Shown piece by piece: positions 11,780-60,685 of a stretch of 64,000 bases of DNA (positions are counted from its first letter, which is position 1; every line of letters begins with the position of its first letter). The notes under the pieces were generated by a model. It made no database searches. It was not told the DNA's origin and worked only from the letters and a program-made list of their open reading frames with translations. Both the position numbers and the translations under genes were made by a program. Origin of the DNA: Palaeococcus ferrophilus DSM 13482 (GTDB taxonomy: Archaea; Methanobacteriota_B; Thermococci; Thermococcales; Thermococcaceae); NCBI RefSeq assembly GCF_000966265.1, contig NZ_LANF01000004.1, positions 1 to 64,000 on the forward strand, read 5' to 3'.

Positions 11780-12100
11780 TTATAAACCTGCCCTTTGGAG
11801 TTCCCTTAACTCTTCGAGCCTCAAAAGAACCTCTTCCCTGTTTCTTATAAGGTTCTGCCTGGCGACCTCTTTTCCGTCCTTAAGGTAGACCAGTGTCGGG
11901 ACGTTGAGGACGTCAAAGCGGTTCACCAGGTCGCTCCACTCCTCCGCATTCACGTGGATTACTTTAATTTCAGGGAACTCCTCGCTGACCTCCTTCATAA
12001 AGTTCTCCACAAGCCTGCACGGGGGACAGCCTGGGATTGAGAACCACAGCACAGCCTTCCCTTTTTCGAAGTCCACCTTTCCGTCGTACTCGACTATCAT
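11780..12100 (-). CDS. Thioredoxin-like protein with CPPC active site
   Basis: A 106-residue thioredoxin fold with the motif SIPGCPPCRLVE around residues 23-34 and the cis-Pro loop NVPTLVYLKDG. No signal peptide, so probably cytosolic. The start at 12100 follows GAGGTGG; a GTG at 12109 is also open. It lies 10 bp behind copA in the same direction, so it may keep copper-binding cysteines of CopA or a chaperone reduced (inference). It resembles the small CPPC/CPYC redoxins of hyperthermophilic archaea. Confidence 0.85.
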   Translation of the reverse strand: MIVEYDGKVDFEKGKAVLWFSIPGCPPCRLVENFMKEVSEEFPEIKVIHVNAEEWSDLVNRFDVLNVPTLVYLKDGKEVARQNLIRNREEVLLRLEELRELQRAGL

Positions 12101-12110
12101 CTCGACCACC

Positions 12111-14510
12111 TCAAACGTTTGCCCTCTTCAGGAGCAGGGAGTTCGTGACGACGCTCACGCTGCTTACGCTCATCGCACCTGCGGCCCACTCGGGCTGGAA
12201 CTCAATTCCGAAGAGGAGGAACGCCAGCCCCGCCGCGAAGGGTATGAGCATCGTGTTGTAGAACATGGCCCAGAAGATGTTCTGCTTTATCTTCCCGAGT
12301 GTCCTCTGGCTGAGCTTTATGGCCTTAACCACGTCCCTCGGGTCGTTTTTCATGAGCACGATGTCGCCGCTCTCCATCGCTATGTCCGTCGCGTTCCCGA
12401 CCGCTACCCCTATGTCGGCCTGTGCCAGGGCCGGAGCGTCGTTGATACCATCTCCCACGAAGATAACTATCTCGCCCTTCTCCTGGAGTTTCTTCACCTC
12501 GTTGGCCTTGTCTCCCGGCAGAACCTCTGCCAGAATGTAGTCCACGCCGAGGGTTCTCCCTATTGCCTCCGCCGTCCTCCTGTTGTCGCCGGTAATCATG
12601 CCGACCTTCTTGCCCATCCTGTGGAGCTCCTCGATGGCCTCCCTGGCGCCTTCTTTTATCGTGTCCGCTATTCCGAGAATGCCCGCTATCTGCTCGTCTA
12701 TCGCCACAACGACAGCAGTCTTGGCCTCGTTTTCGAGCCTCTGGAGGGTCTCCTCCACCGCTCCAAGGTTGAGGCCCCTCTCCACCATAAGTTTCCTGTT
12801 TCCAGCCAATACCTCCTTTCCTCCGATAACGGCCCTGACTCCTTTCCCAGTAATCGCCTCAAACTCCGCCGGCTCCTCAACCTCAAGCCCGAGCTCCTTC
12901 GCCTTCCTCACAACTGCCTCTCCCAGCGGGTGCTCGGAGCGCTTTTCAGCCGAAGCGACGAGCCTAAGGAACTCCTCTTCACTCATTCCAAGCGCGATGA
13001 CGTCTGTAACCTCCGGCTGTCCCTTGGTGAGCGTTCCCGTCTTGTCGAAAAGAACGACGGTTGCCTTCCTCGCTATCTCCAGCACCTCTCCGTTCTTTAT
13101 GAGGATGCCCATCTCAGCCCCTTTTCCCATCCCGACGGTCAGGGCCGTTGGGGTCGCCAATCCGAAGGCACAGGGGCAGGCTATGACGAGGACGCTGAGG
13201 AGCGTCGTGAAGGCAAATAGTACCGGCTCGTCCGCGATGAAGTACCAGTAGGCGAAGGAAAGGAGGGCTATCGTGAGCACCGCCGGGATGAAATAGGCCA
13301 CGATTCTGTCAGCGAGCCGCTGTATCGGCGGCTTCGTGTTCTGTGCCTCCTCGACGAGCCTTATTATCTGGGCCAGAACCGTGTCCCTGCCAACGCGCTT
13401 TGCCTCAACCTTAAGCACGGAGTTCCTGTTTATCGTTCCGCCTATGACCTCGTCGCCCTTCCTCTTCAGGTTGGGCACCGGTTCGCCGGTTATCATCGAC
13501 TCGTCGACGTAGCTCTCGCCCTCGAGGACAACCCCGTCAACCGGAATTCTCTCGCCGGGTTTGACTATCACGATGTCGCCGACTTTTACCTCACCTATCG
13601 GAACCTCGATCTCCTTCCCGTCCATTAAAACCAGGGCTTTCTTCGCCTGAAGACCCATGAGCTTCTTTATGGCCTCGCTTGTCCTCCCTTTCGCCCTCGT
13701 CTCAAGGAACCTGCCGAGCAGAAGGAAGGCCATGAGAAGAACGCTGGCCTCGTAGAAGTTGAACTCCTCAGGAATTATCCCGATGGTTGCCAGGACGCTC
13801 GCAAAGTATGCCGAACCTATGCCGAGGGAGTACATGACCTCCATCGTCAGCGTTTTATGCTTGAGCGAGGAGATCGCCTTCCCGAATATCCCCCTCCCCG
13901 CGTAGGCTATTGCTACCGTTGCCAGGACGAACTGGATCGGCATTAGGTATGGTATCTCTATCCCAAAACGGTCCACCTGCATGGAGGCGAAGAGCGCTAT
14001 CCCGATGCTCCACGCAACGGCCAGCTTCTTCTTCATGTCCCTGAGGGCCTTTTCCCTAAGCTCCCTCTCGACGTCGTGGGTCTCTTCTCCCTCCACACCA
14101 ATGAACTGGTAGCCGACGCTCTCAACGGCCTTCCTGATGTCCTCCAGATCTACAACGCTCGGCTCATAGCTTACTTTTGCGGTCTCCGTTCCGAGGTTGA
14201 CGCTTGCTTCTAGAACACCCGGGAGTTCTTTAAGGGCCGCCTCTATCGTCTTGGCACACATGGCACAGGTCATTCCACCTATCTTGACCACCACATCCTT
14301 CCTCTCGCGAACCACTGTGTAGCCGACGTCCTCAATGGCCTTGATAATCCGGTTCAAACCGACCTCGGACTCGTTGAAGCTGACGAAGACAGTTTCTGTT
14401 CCTAGATTTGCTTTGGCGTCCTTCACGCCCGGAAGTTCCTTTAGGGCGGTCTCTATGGTTTTAACGCACATGGCACACGTCATACCGTTGACCTTGAGAG
14501 TGATCTCCAT
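12111..14510 (-). CDS. copA: Copper-exporting P1B-type ATPase CopA
   Basis: 799 residues. Two N-terminal heavy-metal domains with GMTCAMC motifs; transmembrane helices with the Cu(I) site CPC in [13 protein letters not shown]; phosphorylation motif DKTGTLT; the P1B HP locus SEHPLGEAV; and hinge [10 protein letters not shown]. It pumps Cu(I) out of the cytosol. The ATG at 14510 follows GGTGAAG. A divergent TRASH-domain regulator gene lies across a 115-bp shared promoter region. Confidence 0.95.
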
Positions 14511-14565
14511 TTTCTTCACCGATAGTTATTACGCTGCCAGCCTTATGGGGGTTATTTTTTACACT

Positions 14566-14578
14566 TTGAAAAATTCAA
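14566..14578. promoter_or_regulatory. Dyad in the copA/regulator intergenic region
   Basis: TTGAA-AAA-TTCAA, a perfect inverted repeat between the two divergent genes. It sits just upstream of a TATA-like sequence for copA (about 14548-14557, minus strand) and before TTTTTATAG at about 14586-14594 serving the regulator. A plausible operator for the copper regulator; the assignment is by position only. Confidence 0.45.
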
Positions 14579-14625
14579 GCGAAGAATTTTTATAGTTTGA
14601 AAACAAGATATAGGCGGTGACTGGA

Positions 14626-15210
14626 ATGACACTGGATGAACTGGACCTAAAGCTTATCTACCTCCTGATGGACAATTCGAGACTCAGCATCTCCGAACTG
14701 GCCGAGAGGCTTGGCGTAAGCAGGCCCACGGTAAGGGCAAGGCTGGAGAAGCTTGAGAAGGAAGGGATGATACAGGGCTACACGATAAAGCTCAACCCCG
14801 ACCTGCTCAGGGCCCACAACGTCGTTGCCCTAATCGTAAAAACGGACGAACCGGATAAGATGAAGGGTTTTGAGGAGATAATCGAGATAAACCGCTTCAC
14901 GAGCAGAAAGTACCTGATAAAGATCGCGGTTGAGAGCATGGAGGAGTTGAGGAAAGTCATTGAGGGGGCAGGTTTTGAGGTGCTCGAGATAATGCCAATA
15001 CTGGAGAGCATAGAGAAAAAGACCCCACCCAAGGTCAAGGTGCCCTTTAAGTGCGACTACTGCGGGAAGGAGATAGTGGGCGAGCCCATCGTTTACAAAT
15101 ACCGCAACAAGGTGTACTTCTTCTGCTGCCCGACGTGCTTCAGGGAGTTCAGGAAGACGAGGGAGAACCTGGAAAAGCTAAAGAACCCCGAGGGACACCA
15201 TGAGCATTGA
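14626..15210 (+). CDS. Copper-responsive Lrp-like regulator with TRASH domain (CopT/CopR type)
   Basis: 194 residues. An N-terminal Lrp/AsnC-type winged helix-turn-helix (ISELAERLGVSRPTVRARLE), a central sensor-like region, and a C-terminal TRASH metal-binding segment with KCDYCGKE and FFCCPTCFREF. A His-rich tail (GHHEH) follows. Divergent from copA, the arrangement described for archaeal Cu regulators in Saccharolobus and Thermococcus. A GGTGA site five bases before ATG 14626 favours it over GTG 14617. It probably controls copA by sensing Cu(I) with the TRASH cysteines. Confidence 0.88.
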   Translation: MTLDELDLKLIYLLMDNSRLSISELAERLGVSRPTVRARLEKLEKEGMIQGYTIKLNPDLLRAHNVVALIVKTDEPDKMKGFEEIIEINRFTSRKYLIKIAVESMEELRKVIEGAGFEVLEIMPILESIEKKTPPKVKVPFKCDYCGKEIVGEPIVYKYRNKVYFFCCPTCFREFRKTRENLEKLKNPEGHHEH

Positions 15211-35553: not shown

Positions 35554-35645
35554 AACATCACCGGTGGAACATCAACGGGAGGGTTTATGGGGCTTATTCT
35601 TTCCAGAATGTAAAGAGAAAATGCGGAACAATTGAGAAATCGAAA

Positions 35646-54130: not shown

Positions 54131-56614
54131 TTAGCCCTTACTCACACAGCCTATGAAGGCCTCCCAGACCTTGAAGGGTCCCCTCAGGCAAGTCACGTAG
54201 CAGTTGCAGTTGAAGCTCCCATAGCGGCATTCAAGAGCGCTGCAGACCGTAGAGGGATCCTTTGGGTTGAGGCCGTCGAGGGGAGCTAGGCAGGGGTGGA
54301 TGTTCCCCCATCCCGGGTTTGGAAGGTTTTTCTCGATGTCGTCGGCGTAGGAGTTTATAGAAGCTCCCGTTATGACGGCGTTCGTCTCGGGCATCGGGGG
54401 CCAGGGGGTAATGCATGGATAGCGCTCTATGGCGTCCCATATCAGGGAGAAGTAGCGGGCGAAGATGGTAGCGGGCAGGAAAGTTCTTCCCTGTATGCAG
54501 CACAGCCGGCAGGATTCTCCCTCAACAACGCCAACCATGGCCGCTTTGAGCTTGCAGAGCTCGCACTCCTCTTGCGTTGCATACCCTCTCCCCGCCATCG
54601 GGCCCCTGGGGAAAGTGTTGGGATGGAGGGTGTTGAGAGCCACCTTTCCAAAGCTGGCCGAAAATCCGTTGTAGCCCGGGCCGTTGTGGAGCGTCGCGTT
54701 TAGACCGGGGAAGAAGGGAACTGTTAGGTTCCTATCCTCTGCCACCGCCATGGCGAAGGTGGTGCTTGAGTTCCCGGCTTTCAGCTCAAAGGAGTGGAGG
54801 CCGGGAGTTAAGAGCACCTCAATCCTGCCCCTCTCATCCGTTGTCCCCACCACTTTCCCGTCAACTGACACCGTGAGGTTGATGGCGTAGAAGGAAGGCG
54901 GCATGACCGCGGTGAGGGTCACGGTCAGGGGTTTTTCCCCTCCAGCTTCCTCCGCTGGCCTTGGAAGGGCGAAATAGCCCGCTGTCAGGAGAATGCCTAT
55001 TACCAACAGCGCCAGTCCCCGCTTATCCTTCCTCGCATAGAGGACGAGTCCGCCTATTACCGCAGCGGCTCCAAGAACTGCAAGTATTAACCCCAAATCA
55101 GAGCCCCCTTCACCTTCCACCGGCGTCTGAGGGGGGGTGTAGCTCTCGTTCTCCACGAAGAAGGAGAAGTATCCCTCCGAGTCCGTCCACACGGTTCTTC
55201 CCGAGACGTTCACCGGCGCCCCCTGTATGTCCACCTTCCCGTAGATGACCGCCCCATTTTCCAGGGGTAGGGACTCCTGCCAGAGGAGCCTTGGCTTTAG
55301 GTTGCTTACCACCCTCGTCCTGTTCATGTAAACGTCCTCGCCGTCGAAGTAGACCGCCGTGATGTTGTACTCGCCAGCCAGGAAAGTTGCGTTCCACTCT
55401 ACCTCCTCACCCCATCTTGCGAGCTTTCCGTTGATGTAGATGAAAACCGGCCCCGGGAAGTACTCCCTGGGCGTCACCCACGCCTTTAGGGTTCCATTCC
55501 CGTAGAGGAGGTGAACCTTCGGCCTCAGCTCATCGAGGAGTATTAGTCTCCCCCCGGAGCCAACGTAGCCCCCGCCGAAGTCGTGCGTGAATGCAACGCC
55601 AGGAAAGGCCGTGTATCCCTCGGGATAGGTTCTCTTCTCCACCCTTTCCAGTGTGGGCTCTATCTCCACCTCACCCCGGTTAACTTCCAGGGTCTTGGTG
55701 GGCCCTCCGAGGGAGATTACTTCCATCTCTCCGACCTCTCTCTCAAGAACTGCCTCGCCAGTCCACGTGACGTTCCCCGGGTTGAAGAGCACCAGGTCCC
55801 AGTCCGAGTTCATCAGGAGGACGTAGTTTCCAAAGAGCTTGACGTGGAGGGGCCGGCCTATAATCTTGAGGAAGCGGAAGGTGGCGTTGTAAGGCTCAAA
55901 CATCGCAACGCCTGGCGTTTCGCCCTCCATTATCGCCGCGTAAACCGTGAGGTTCCCATCAACGGTTATCCCGTCCGGGACGAGTGTTGAATAGTTTTCG
56001 GGGAGGCGCCATAGGTAGAACGTCCTGTTCTCGGGGAAGAGTATCCCAACGCCGCCCTTTGGCTCATCTTTAAACTCAATAGTAAAGTAAACTCTGTCGA
56101 GAGCTGGGAAGACATCGTAGGTTTTGAAGGTCTCATTGGGAAGGCGGTAAAAGGTCAGAGTGCCGTTTTTAAGTATCCCAACCCCACCGGTCCCGTTGAG
56201 CATGCCGGCGAAGTACGCGGTATCTCTTTTGGCATAGACGTGGATTAGCTGCAAGCCGGAGTACTCCCAGGCGTAGAGCGTGTCGTTGGAGGGATTCAAG
56301 GCCAAGGCTGGCCCCCAGTCAGCGGCCATATAAACACTGTCACCGACCGAAAGGCCGTTGAGGAGATAGGGCTGCTCCCAGTATATAAAGTGGGTCTCGT
56401 TGGTCTTGAGCCACACCCTTTCACCGTAGGTGCTGAAGTAGAGTCCATCGGGAGAAAGCCTCGGGTGGAGTATTATCCCTCCAACGTCCCACACGAAGAC
56501 TTTTCCCGCCGATGCCACCGGAATTGCCAGAAGAAAGAGCATTAAAACGACAAGGGTTCTTTTAAGGTTCTTGCTGTCCCCCAAATTCTGAAGACAGAAG
56601 CCCCGCCCGCACAT
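54131..56614 (-). CDS. Large exported protein with membrane segments and Cys-rich end
   Basis: 827 residues, family not recognised. A signal peptide (RTLVVLMLFLLAIPVASA) follows a 19-residue start; GGAGG precedes the ATG at 56614. Residues about 35-320 show repeated strands typical of a beta-propeller (HPRLSPDGLYFSTYG, GVGILKNGTLTFYRLPN, GVAMFEPYNATFRFL), with many N-glycosylation sequons. Two hydrophobic segments follow mid-protein (LGLILAVLGAAAVIGGLVLY, LALLVIGILLTAGYFAL). The last 150 residues hold over a dozen Cys (CELCKLK, CRLCCIQ, CNCYVTC). It looks like a membrane-anchored sensor or surface protein with a disulfide- or metal-stabilised tail. Confidence 0.75.
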   Translation of the reverse strand: MCGRGFCLQNLGDSKNLKRTLVVLMLFLLAIPVASAGKVFVWDVGGIILHPRLSPDGLYFSTYGERVWLKTNETHFIYWEQPYLLNGLSVGDSVYMAADWGPALALNPSNDTLYAWEYSGLQLIHVYAKRDTAYFAGMLNGTGGVGILKNGTLTFYRLPNETFKTYDVFPALDRVYFTIEFKDEPKGGVGILFPENRTFYLWRLPENYSTLVPDGITVDGNLTVYAAIMEGETPGVAMFEPYNATFRFLKIIGRPLHVKLFGNYVLLMNSDWDLVLFNPGNVTWTGEAVLEREVGEMEVISLGGPTKTLEVNRGEVEIEPTLERVEKRTYPEGYTAFPGVAFTHDFGGGYVGSGGRLILLDELRPKVHLLYGNGTLKAWVTPREYFPGPVFIYINGKLARWGEEVEWNATFLAGEYNITAVYFDGEDVYMNRTRVVSNLKPRLLWQESLPLENGAVIYGKVDIQGAPVNVSGRTVWTDSEGYFSFFVENESYTPPQTPVEGEGGSDLGLILAVLGAAAVIGGLVLYARKDKRGLALLVIGILLTAGYFALPRPAEEAGGEKPLTVTLTAVMPPSFYAINLTVSVDGKVVGTTDERGRIEVLLTPGLHSFELKAGNSSTTFAMAVAEDRNLTVPFFPGLNATLHNGPGYNGFSASFGKVALNTLHPNTFPRGPMAGRGYATQEECELCKLKAAMVGVVEGESCRLCCIQGRTFLPATIFARYFSLIWDAIERYPCITPWPPMPETNAVITGASINSYADDIEKNLPNPGWGNIHPCLAPLDGLNPKDPSTVCSALECRYGSFNCNCYVTCLRGPFKVWEAFIGCVSKG

Positions 56615-56747
56615 TTTCAGGCCTCCGTTAAGGAGCTCGTTAAATCAATCTAGGGCTCGAAACGATATAAGGTTTGCTTTTCAAAATGTTACACTTCGAA
56701 AAATATAGCATTTACAAAATCAAAATACACCTTGTGCTTTTCAGCTT

Positions 56748-58309: not shown

Positions 58310-58420
58310 TGGTGCACCTGTGTGTGGTATAAATGTCAATACCTTTTCAGGGGGAATTTTCCATTTTGGAAAGGATAAGAGCCATAAGTCTGCTTTATTA
58401 AGCACAGATTGGTGATTATA

Positions 58421-58627
58421 ATGGAAGCTAAGGTATGCAAGTTCTGCGCCGGAGAGAGGCTCGATGATGTGATAAAGCTCCTCGAGGAGAAGGGCTACAG
58501 GGTTAGCGTTGAGGAGTGCATAGGGCTCTGCGCAAAGTACGCCTGCGGCAACATAAACGTCATAGCCGGCGAAAAGGAGATATCCGCCAGGGACTTTGAT
58601 GAGTTCGTGAAAGTACTGGAGGTATAG
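58421..58627 (+). CDS. Small four-cysteine protein (DUF1450-like)
   Basis: 68 residues. VCKFCAGERLDD at the start and CIGLCAKYACG in the middle give five cysteines in CxxC, CxxxC and CxxxxC spacings. The pattern recalls DUF1450/YuzB-type or thioredoxin-like ferredoxin folds. It could bind a cluster or metal, or carry sulfur. GGTGATTATA precedes the ATG at 58421. It heads a run of redox genes; the DsrE-like gene starts 3 bp after its stop. A TGCTT-TATT-AAGCA dyad at 58391-58404 lies upstream. Confidence 0.72.
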   Translation: MEAKVCKFCAGERLDDVIKLLEEKGYRVSVEECIGLCAKYACGNINVIAGEKEISARDFDEFVKVLEV

Positions 58628-58629
58628 CC

Positions 58630-58959
58630 ATGGTGAAGGCCTTAGTGATAATTTCAAGCGATGATGAGGGGGCCTTACCGGGCTTCATGTGGGCCGTGAA
58701 TGCCATCAAGCACGGCTGGGTCGAGGACGTTGAGGTTGTTCTCTTCGGCCCGATAGAGAGGGCGATAGCGGAGGGAGACGAGCGCTTCCTTCCGTGGGTG
58801 GAAAAGCTGGGAGAGCTCGGAAAACTCCCTCTGGCCTGCAAGAGGCTGGCGGAGATGGAGGACTTTGAGACTCCGCTCGGGGAGTACGCGAGGCTGGAAT
58901 ACGTGGGCAAAATAATAGCCGAGCACCTGGAGAAGGGCTACGTCCCGATGACCTTCTAA
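58630..58959 (+). CDS. DsrE/DsrF-like protein
   Basis: 109 residues: VKALVIISSDDEGALPGFMWAV at the start, then EVVLFGPIERAIAEGD and a C-terminal helical part. The fold pattern is that of DsrE/TusD-type sulfur-handling proteins, but the usual active-site Cys position is not obvious; the only Cys is in PLACKRLAEMED. It is almost fused to the small CxxC gene, which suggests that they work together. Confidence 0.75.
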   Translation: MVKALVIISSDDEGALPGFMWAVNAIKHGWVEDVEVVLFGPIERAIAEGDERFLPWVEKLGELGKLPLACKRLAEMEDFETPLGEYARLEYVGKIIAEHLEKGYVPMTF

Positions 58960-59020
58960 TGAAAAAAGCTTCAAGAAAAGTCTTTTTAAGCCTTGGAGAA
59001 AGGCATTTTAGGTGAACAGA

Positions 59021-60319
59021 GTGAGGAGGGTGCCCCTAATATTCATCTTTTTCCTGCTCTTCGTGGGACTTGTAACAGCGGGGGAGGTCTCCTACGGGGG
59101 GCTTAAGTTCCAGGACGTTTCAAGCGAGGGGGAGCTAAAATCTCTAATCTCCGCCCACGAGGGCGAGTATTTCTTCATCTTCTACCACTCGGAGAGCTGT
59201 CCGGCCTGTCAGTACATGAAGGCGAGCGTCTTCCCGACGGAGAAGGCCAAAGCGGCCCTCAACGGGCTCAACCTGGTGGCTATTGATGTTTACAGGGGGA
59301 GAGAGCTCACCAACCTGGGCTACGTTGTCAGGGACAGCGTCCTCGTGCTCCAGCCCGACAACTCCGGCTATTACAACCCCCGGGAGCCGGGGGAGAGGAT
59401 AAACGTCGGCGTCCCGGGAACGCCAACGATGGTGCTCTTCAAGGTCGAGAACGGCACGATGGTGCTCAAAGGGGTGGCAGTTGGAGCGCTGAACCCGGAT
59501 GGCCTTGAGTTCTTCGTAAAGACTGCCATCGGGGACGAGATGCAAAGCCCCACCGAGAGTATGGATACGCAAAGCGAGAGGGTAAAAAATGGAAGCTCAA
59601 GGGAGAACGCCAACACAAACCTAAGCCTCGCCGTGCTCCTTCCCATATTCTCCGCGGGGATCGTTAGCGTCTTCTCGCCCTGCGTGCTCCCAGTAATAGC
59701 GGGCGCCCTCTCGCTGACCTTTGCGAGGAGAAAGGTGGAGGTCATAATAGCGGGTATGGTGGCGTCATTTGCCCTCCTCGGTGCCCTCGTTGGGAGCCTC
59801 GGCGAGTACGCCTCCGGCATACAGGGAGCGCTCTACCTCCTCGGAGGAGTTGGTTTCATACTGGTGGGTGCGAGCTTCGTAAACCCGGGGATGAGGGCAA
59901 AGATGGAGTGGTTCCTCAGCTTTTCTCCCTCTGATAGGGTGGTTTCAAAGAACGGCCTCGCCTACGACTTCGCCCTAGGCTCTGCACTCGGGGCGACTTG
60001 GCTCGGCTGCATAGCGCCCTATGTGGGCTTCGCCGTGATAACCGCGGCCCTAACGGGGGAGGCACTGAAGGGGGTCATAGTTATGGGCACCTACGGCCTC
60101 GGGATGGGCCTCACGGTCTACCTCATCACCATGTCGAAGGACCTGGGCGAGTGGATAAACAGAAAGCTGCTCTCCGGCAGGATTTCGGTAAGTGCCGGAA
60201 GCTCAAAGTGGGAGGTCGCCATCGGCGTTGTCCTCATAGCCCTTGGAATTCTCATGCTGACCGAGGTCACGCCGCTGAAGCTGTGGAGTGCCCTCTTCGA
60301 ATCACTCTCAAAACTGTAA
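59021..60319 (+). CDS. Thioredoxin-CcdA fusion (DsbD-like) membrane protein
   Basis: 432 residues from GTG 59021 (AGGTGA before it). A signal peptide is followed by an extracytoplasmic thioredoxin-like domain with YHSESCPACQYMK, a polar linker, and then a six-helix CcdA/DsbD-beta domain. The two transmembrane redox cysteines are in FSPCVLPVIAGAL and ATWLGCIAPYVG. It moves electrons from cytosolic thioredoxin to the outside. GTG 59012 is also open. Next to DsrE and DUF302 genes, it anchors a redox or sulfur-relay cluster. Confidence 0.88.
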   Translation: MRRVPLIFIFFLLFVGLVTAGEVSYGGLKFQDVSSEGELKSLISAHEGEYFFIFYHSESCPACQYMKASVFPTEKAKAALNGLNLVAIDVYRGRELTNLGYVVRDSVLVLQPDNSGYYNPREPGERINVGVPGTPTMVLFKVENGTMVLKGVAVGALNPDGLEFFVKTAIGDEMQSPTESMDTQSERVKNGSSRENANTNLSLAVLLPIFSAGIVSVFSPCVLPVIAGALSLTFARRKVEVIIAGMVASFALLGALVGSLGEYASGIQGALYLLGGVGFILVGASFVNPGMRAKMEWFLSFSPSDRVVSKNGLAYDFALGSALGATWLGCIAPYVGFAVITAALTGEALKGVIVMGTYGLGMGLTVYLITMSKDLGEWINRKLLSGRISVSAGSSKWEVAIGVVLIALGILMLTEVTPLKLWSALFESLSKL

Positions 60320-60331
60320 GGGGGTGGAAAA

Positions 60332-60685
60332 ATGTTCAGGTACAGGAGGAAGCTTGAGATGGGCCTCAGGGAGGCCGAGGAGAAGTTTAAGGCAAAGCTC
60401 GAGGAGAAGGGCTACAAGGTCGTGCTTGAGTTCACGCCGAGCGACGTGGTCAAGGCCAAGCTCGGCGTTGAGATGGAGCCCTACAGGCTCCTCTACGTCT
60501 GCAACCCGAAGAAGTTCTACGAGATGACCAAGGTCGAGTACGAAATTGGCTCCTTCGCCCCGTGCCCGGTTATCCTCTACCAGAAGGACGGGGAGACTTA
60601 CATTGCTATAAACACGGCTGAGGACATAGTTGAGGTCATTAAGGAGCCGCTCGAGGACGTTAAGGCGGTCATTGAGGGGCTTTGA
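60332..60685 (+). CDS. DUF302-family protein
   Basis: 117 residues: AEEKFKAKLEEKGYKVVLEF, YRLLYVCNPKKFYEM, then GSFAPCPVILYQKDGETYIA, the DUF302 core with a conserved Cys. A GGGGGTGG site precedes the ATG. It is 12 bp behind the thioredoxin-CcdA gene and so is in the same operon. The second DUF302 gene of this window (the first is at 35.6 kb, beside a CoA-binding protein). Confidence 0.85.
   Translation: MFRYRRKLEMGLREAEEKFKAKLEEKGYKVVLEFTPSDVVKAKLGVEMEPYRLLYVCNPKKFYEMTKVEYEIGSFAPCPVILYQKDGETYIAINTAEDIVEVIKEPLEDVKAVIEGL

Follow-up and report, generated by a model that had tools for sequence, protein, structure and literature searches.

A CopR-type promoter site suggests a copper link for a two-module, cysteine-rich gene cluster of Palaeococcus ferrophilus

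The main new result of this analysis is regulatory: a match to the CopR motif stands before the gene for a small five-cysteine (CxxC) protein, the first of four genes in a 64,000-nucleotide window (the whole stretch of DNA analysed) from Palaeococcus ferrophilus. The cluster exists, is conserved and tells more than the first description suggested; it consists of known parts with a testable link to copper. As claimed in an earlier note on this DNA, four ORFs follow each other on the + strand, encoding the CxxC protein (58421-58627, 68 aa), a DsrE-fold protein (58630-58959, 109 aa), a thioredoxin-CcdA fusion, TlpCcdA (59021-60319, 432 aa), and a DUF302 protein (60332-60685, 117 aa). The gaps between them were computed as 2, 61 and 12 bp, a slight correction to the 3, about 60 and 12 bp first given. 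GTG 59021 is the best supported start of TlpCcdA, as the alignment shows V or M starts at this position in orthologues, with a GGTGA ribosome-binding site just 5' of it; the mechanical ORF begins at 59012. The five-cysteine and DUF302 proteins belong to families of unknown role, and the DsrE-fold protein is unplaced. On the promoter evidence, we propose an option that the earlier note did not contain, copper/thiol stress: the CopR-type site suggests a role in copper protection rather than in driving sulfur respiration.

A conserved CopR-type site upstream of the CxxC gene

In Pyrococcus furiosus, nearly all promoters regulated by CopR carry its consensus, TTNNCAWWWTGNNAA, directly 5' of the BRE (PMC7830388). 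The predicted operator described here, TTTCCATTTTGGAAA, is a perfect palindrome at 58358..58372 that fits TTNNCAWWWTGNNAA; 48 bp separate its end from the start codon of the CxxC gene. Downstream of it, a putative C-rich TATA-like box, CCATAAGT (58382..58389, + strand), was assigned to the CxxC-DsrE promoter from the sequence and from a CATAA-type element conserved in orthologues. The operator is the sole exact motif match in the window, against a chance expectation of 0.04; the 2.2-Mb genome holds nine exact matches and the reversed control four.

The site is conserved among orthologues. Across 34 orthologous CxxC upstream regions, the motif was exact in 13, carried one mismatch in 11 and at least two mismatches in 10, and the distance from site to start was 47-49 bp in 15 of the 24 exact or one-mismatch regions (64-101 bp in the rest). 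It is also kept where the CxxC gene has been relocated (L055-L058, L110 and L111). Control promoters, 12 of nitroreductase and 11 of TlpCcdA genes, contained no CopR motif better than two mismatches. A stricter pattern run over 94 genomes, which are related and so not independent, returned 43 sites; 10 belong to CxxC promoters, and 20 have a DUF302 paralogue within 2.5 kb. Exact matches were also seen inside the coding sequence of TnpB-like ORFs of ~435 aa (L145, L146), and these are probably due to chance. Regulation by SurR was considered and rejected, GTTnnnAAC being absent upstream of the CxxC gene and its orthologues.

A candidate controller of the operator is encoded in the same window. 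The copR-like gene (14617..15210, + strand), whose product combines an HTH, a TRASH domain (PF08394, 77.7 bits) and C-terminal His, adjoins copA (12111-14519, - strand), with a one-mismatch CopR motif at 14558 between the two. This cop cluster (11780-15210) also holds a gene for a thioredoxin-like protein. Between 34000 and 39400 lie genes for an FTR1 permease, a thioredoxin-like, a CoA-binding and a DUF302 protein, a peroxiredoxin and an NAD(P)H-dependent reductase, with one-mismatch sites at 35600, 37823 and 38703, near FTR1 and the peroxiredoxin/reductase pair; this region resembles a copper-induced region of P. furiosus. Closer to the cluster, a gene at 54131-56614 encodes a large secreted protein whose C-terminus is rich in Cys; this gene has a one-mismatch site upstream, at 56678.

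Two features are thus common to this window and the P. furiosus CopR regulon (PMC7830388), namely an exact consensus directly 5' of the promoter, here at the CxxC gene, and copA, copR, FTR1, peroxiredoxin and ferritin genes in the same region. The two differ in that regulation here is predicted, and that searches of the g2 genomes, which are taken to be Pyrococcus, recovered no CxxC, DsrE or TlpCcdA gene. CopR would accordingly be expected to bind the operator and copper to induce the CxxC gene in this species.

Two modules in Thermococcales genomes

The earlier note would have been refuted had the genes not occurred together in other genomes; they were found together in many species, and in the same order in ~20 other genomes. 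Among 94 Thermococcales genomes, all four genes are present in 23 and the four-gene order is kept in ~20; co-occurrence of gene pairs is far above chance (Fisher p 5e-10 to 2e-17, values that serve only as a guide since the genomes are related and not independent). Relatives outside Thermococcales were sought in a genome scan, which returned Thermococci only, and in a phylum search, which returned family f1 only. Literature searches combining DsrE or CcdA with Thermococcus retrieved nothing on these genes.

The earlier picture of one fixed four-gene operon gave way in this comparison. The cluster is made of two modules, CxxC-DsrE and TlpCcdA-DUF302, which have separate phyletic patterns and a conserved TATA box between them: a putative box, CTTTTTAA (58982..58989, + strand), would mark a separate TlpCcdA-DUF302 promoter and is conserved at loci with and without CxxC-DsrE upstream, and a TTCAAnAAAAnnCTTTTTAA-type element is conserved 5' of TlpCcdA in most contexts. 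A single operon was therefore rejected in favour of two transcription units that often adjoin, with possible read-through from the first into the second. Within the first module, the 2-bp gap makes it probable that CxxC and DsrE share one transcript.

Each module has neighbours of its own. CxxC-DsrE is divergent from E1-ThiI genes at two loci (L055, L058), as is CxxC alone at a third (L111), and E1-ThiI genes are also present 4-6 kb upstream of the cluster within the window. In four g5 genomes (L056, L057, L110, L114), the MBS sulfane reductase operon is directly followed by the CxxC gene. TlpCcdA-DUF302 is found without CxxC-DsrE, after a nitroreductase gene, at L104-L106, and TlpCcdA is near a CTP-synthase-like gene in g1, g5 and g6.

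The CxxC-DsrE pair is missing from most of the 94 genomes, and stops mark broken gene copies in G028 and G077. Broken copies of TlpCcdA and DsrE at L036 and L060 suggest recent loss in some species, which indicates that the system is dispensable. On plasmids, searches found DsrE in T. peptonophilus only and CxxC in none. This second DsrE copy of T. peptonophilus (plasmid NZ_CP014751.1; L136, L137) is accompanied by metal and peroxide stress genes, encoding a heavy-metal P-type ATPase, a TRASH protein, FTR1, a peroxiredoxin, a DUF302 protein and arsB; no CopR-type site was present in its upstream region.

The encoded proteins and rival readings

The description of TlpCcdA as a membrane thiol conduit with a thioredoxin domain was borne out by its DsbD-type cysteines. 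The protein begins with a hydrophobic signal or anchor, followed by a thioredoxin domain that carries CPAC; its C-terminal part is a CcdA membrane domain containing two further cysteines. The CPAC, FSPC and LGC cysteines are all invariant in alignment A2, where the CcdA pair is C224 and C333; hydropathy and sequence place the four at 60, 63, 221 and 330. Pfam matches to Thioredoxin_2, DsbD_TM and DsbD_2 fell just under cut-off, NCBIfam scores were also below threshold, and the PDB search matched CcdA (2n4x, E 2e-10). TlpCcdA thus has in common with the DsbD/CcdA conduit a CcdA membrane domain with two functional Cys and a CxxC thioredoxin domain, but differs in that its thioredoxin domain precedes the membrane domain; no nDsbD domain was detected in it. 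An extracytoplasmic position of the thioredoxin domain is predicted from the N-terminal hydrophobic segment. As for the earlier proposal that reducing power or sulfur is transferred across the membrane, DsbD/CcdA homology is consistent with the former, and we found no evidence for the latter or for a reduction of polysulfide.

The DUF302 assignment was clear, with a Pfam PF03625 match of 57.4 bits (cut-off 23, E 1e-15) and PDB matches to 1j3m and 1q9u. Thermococcal copies in the cluster have two invariant cysteines, in VCNP and APCPV (alignment A3). A paralogue on contig C19 (L153, 4431-4979) has an N-terminal extension rich in Met, Lys, Gly and His, and an exact CopR-type site precedes its gene by 60 bp; the extension is common to relatives in L154, L155, L157, L158 and L160, and close relatives also show both the extension and an exact site.

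For the second protein of the cluster, the label DsrE-like holds at the level of fold and is undetectable by Pfam. Its model (pLDDT 96) gave Foldseek probabilities of 1.00 to 2fb6, 2pd2, 1l1s and 1jx7 (YchN), with 3mc3 also matching, and its sequence profile matched 2fb6 (E 2e-5), the one invariant cysteine of alignment A1, C70, being aligned to a Cys. Identity to the nearest solved structure is 19%, and Pfam returned no match, the PF02635 cut-off not being reached. The protein thus shares with the DsrE/TusBCD sulfur carriers a fold and one conserved Cys, and differs from them in having no Pfam DsrE score and no identified heterohexamer partners.

This likeness underlies the main rival to copper/thiol stress, a housekeeping role in sulfur trafficking. 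The CxxC and DsrE-fold proteins could carry cytoplasmic sulfane sulfur, taken from polysulfide or MBS products, to E1/ThiI thiolation in a TusBCD-like manner, and the CopR site would then reflect repair of sulfur products after copper damage, or be secondary. The DsrE fold is common to TusC and sulfurtransferases, and the ThiI, E1 and MBS neighbours described above fit sulfur trafficking as well as they fit the copper reading. Work on T. kodakarensis (PMC11323500) also favours it: this species can draw its sulfur from S0, with S0-dependent thiolation, even without ubiquitin-like carriers. Against it stand the single Cys of the DsrE-fold protein, the lack of an identified TusA or TusE partner and the rarity of the gene pair among the 94 genomes. 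The E1/ThiI neighbourhood may, moreover, reflect co-regulation, because the ferritin-ThiI-E1 block resembles a P. furiosus copper-responsive region. We regard sulfur trafficking as possible though doubtful as the main role, and it can coexist with copper control.

The claim of a small five-cysteine protein was confirmed, C6, C9, C33, C37 and C42 being invariant in 25 aligned orthologues (alignment A4). They lie in CKFC, where the first strand ends, and in CIGLCAKYAC, in a loop. The AlphaFold model (pLDDT 91; strand-helix-strand-strand-strand-helix) has a predicted thioredoxin-like fold, with weak Foldseek matches, the best of them to 2Fe-2S domains of thioredoxin-like type in formate dehydrogenase and NuoE (probability 0.95-0.96, E ~0.1, TM ~0.6). 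Pfam and NCBIfam yielded scattered low-grade matches only, the best being Nif11 (E 0.001, in some members), which we take as chance.

The invariant cysteines, together with the CopR-type site upstream, would also suit a protein that mainly binds Cu(I) or acts as a metallochaperone, the DsrE-fold and DUF302 proteins being accessory metal binders and redox or sulfur chemistry incidental. The Met/His-rich DUF302 paralogue under the same type of site and a weak fold similarity of the CxxC model to the copper resistance protein CopG point the same way. However, the predicted fold is thioredoxin-like rather than HMA, and the copper-induced chaperone of P. furiosus is a dedicated HMA protein, CopZ (PMC7830388); pure metal binding is in our judgement unlikely, and less likely than sulfur trafficking. 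Less likely than sulfur trafficking too, and on its own terms improbable, is a thioredoxin-like [2Fe-2S] ferredoxin supplying CcdA with electrons at its inner face: in the order of its elements and the placement of its cysteines, with C-x2-C at helix 1 and C-x3-C in the loop that leads to strand 3, the protein is similar to NuoE-type domains, which rank among its best fold matches, but the Foldseek E value is only 0.08, the Cys spacing differs, the CxxC protein also occurs without adjacent TlpCcdA, and membership in PF01257 is not claimed given the lack of a Pfam match and a negative profile comparison (hhalign against Thermococcal PF01257 proteins, probability 0.4%).

A copper/thiol-stress reading of the cluster

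Copper attacks thiols. In these cells its harm is thought to lie mainly in the replacement of Fe in Fe-S clusters (PMC7830388). We favour, at about even confidence, a copper/thiol-stress locus of two cooperating modules, with CxxC-DsrE under CopR. A multi-cysteine thioredoxin-like protein paired with a DsrE-fold protein under such control fits thiol or sulfur repair in the cytoplasm, and the thioredoxin-CcdA conduit fits a supply of reductant outside the cell.

As we picture it, CopR would switch on the first module as copper rises. This module would form a cytoplasmic cysteine relay, in which the CxxC protein swaps electrons, sulfane sulfur or Cu(I) with the reactive Cys of the DsrE-fold protein, and would help to mend thiols, thiolated products or Fe-S clusters hurt by copper. 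In the second module, a thiol donor in the cytoplasm would pass electrons through the CcdA domain to the thioredoxin domain on the outer side, which would keep extracytoplasmic thiols reduced; the DUF302 protein may assist, perhaps by handling metal or thiols. Because the TlpCcdA promoter carries a TATA box of its own but lacks a CopR site, copper control of the second module would need read-through from the first. Cooperation and co-regulation of the modules, the flow of electrons or sulfur and the substrates are all inferred.

A bacterial system follows a similar logic. ScsB is the DsbD-like membrane protein of the Scs (suppressor of copper sensitivity) system. A DsbD-like membrane protein and thioredoxin-fold proteins of Scs are tied to copper tolerance (PMC8900818, PMC5524982). 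The resemblance to the present cluster is one of logic only, and no homologue of ScsA, ScsC or ScsD is claimed.

More tentatively, we suggest that Thermococcus has a dedicated route of copper-inducible sulfur/thiol repair, with the five-cysteine and DsrE-fold proteins carrying sulfur or reductant inside, thioredoxin-CcdA and DUF302 supplying reductant outside, and DUF302 being a copper-linked family; it is conceivable, on that same tentative footing, that the five-cysteine thioredoxin-like protein represents a new type. Copper stress under CopR provides a testable context, in genetically tractable archaea, for the five-cysteine protein, for DUF302 and for the unplaced DsrE-fold protein. If the reading is true, the CopR regulon would take in thiol and sulfur repair as well as metal export, and the cluster would be an archaeal counterpart of bacterial Scs-type copper tolerance.
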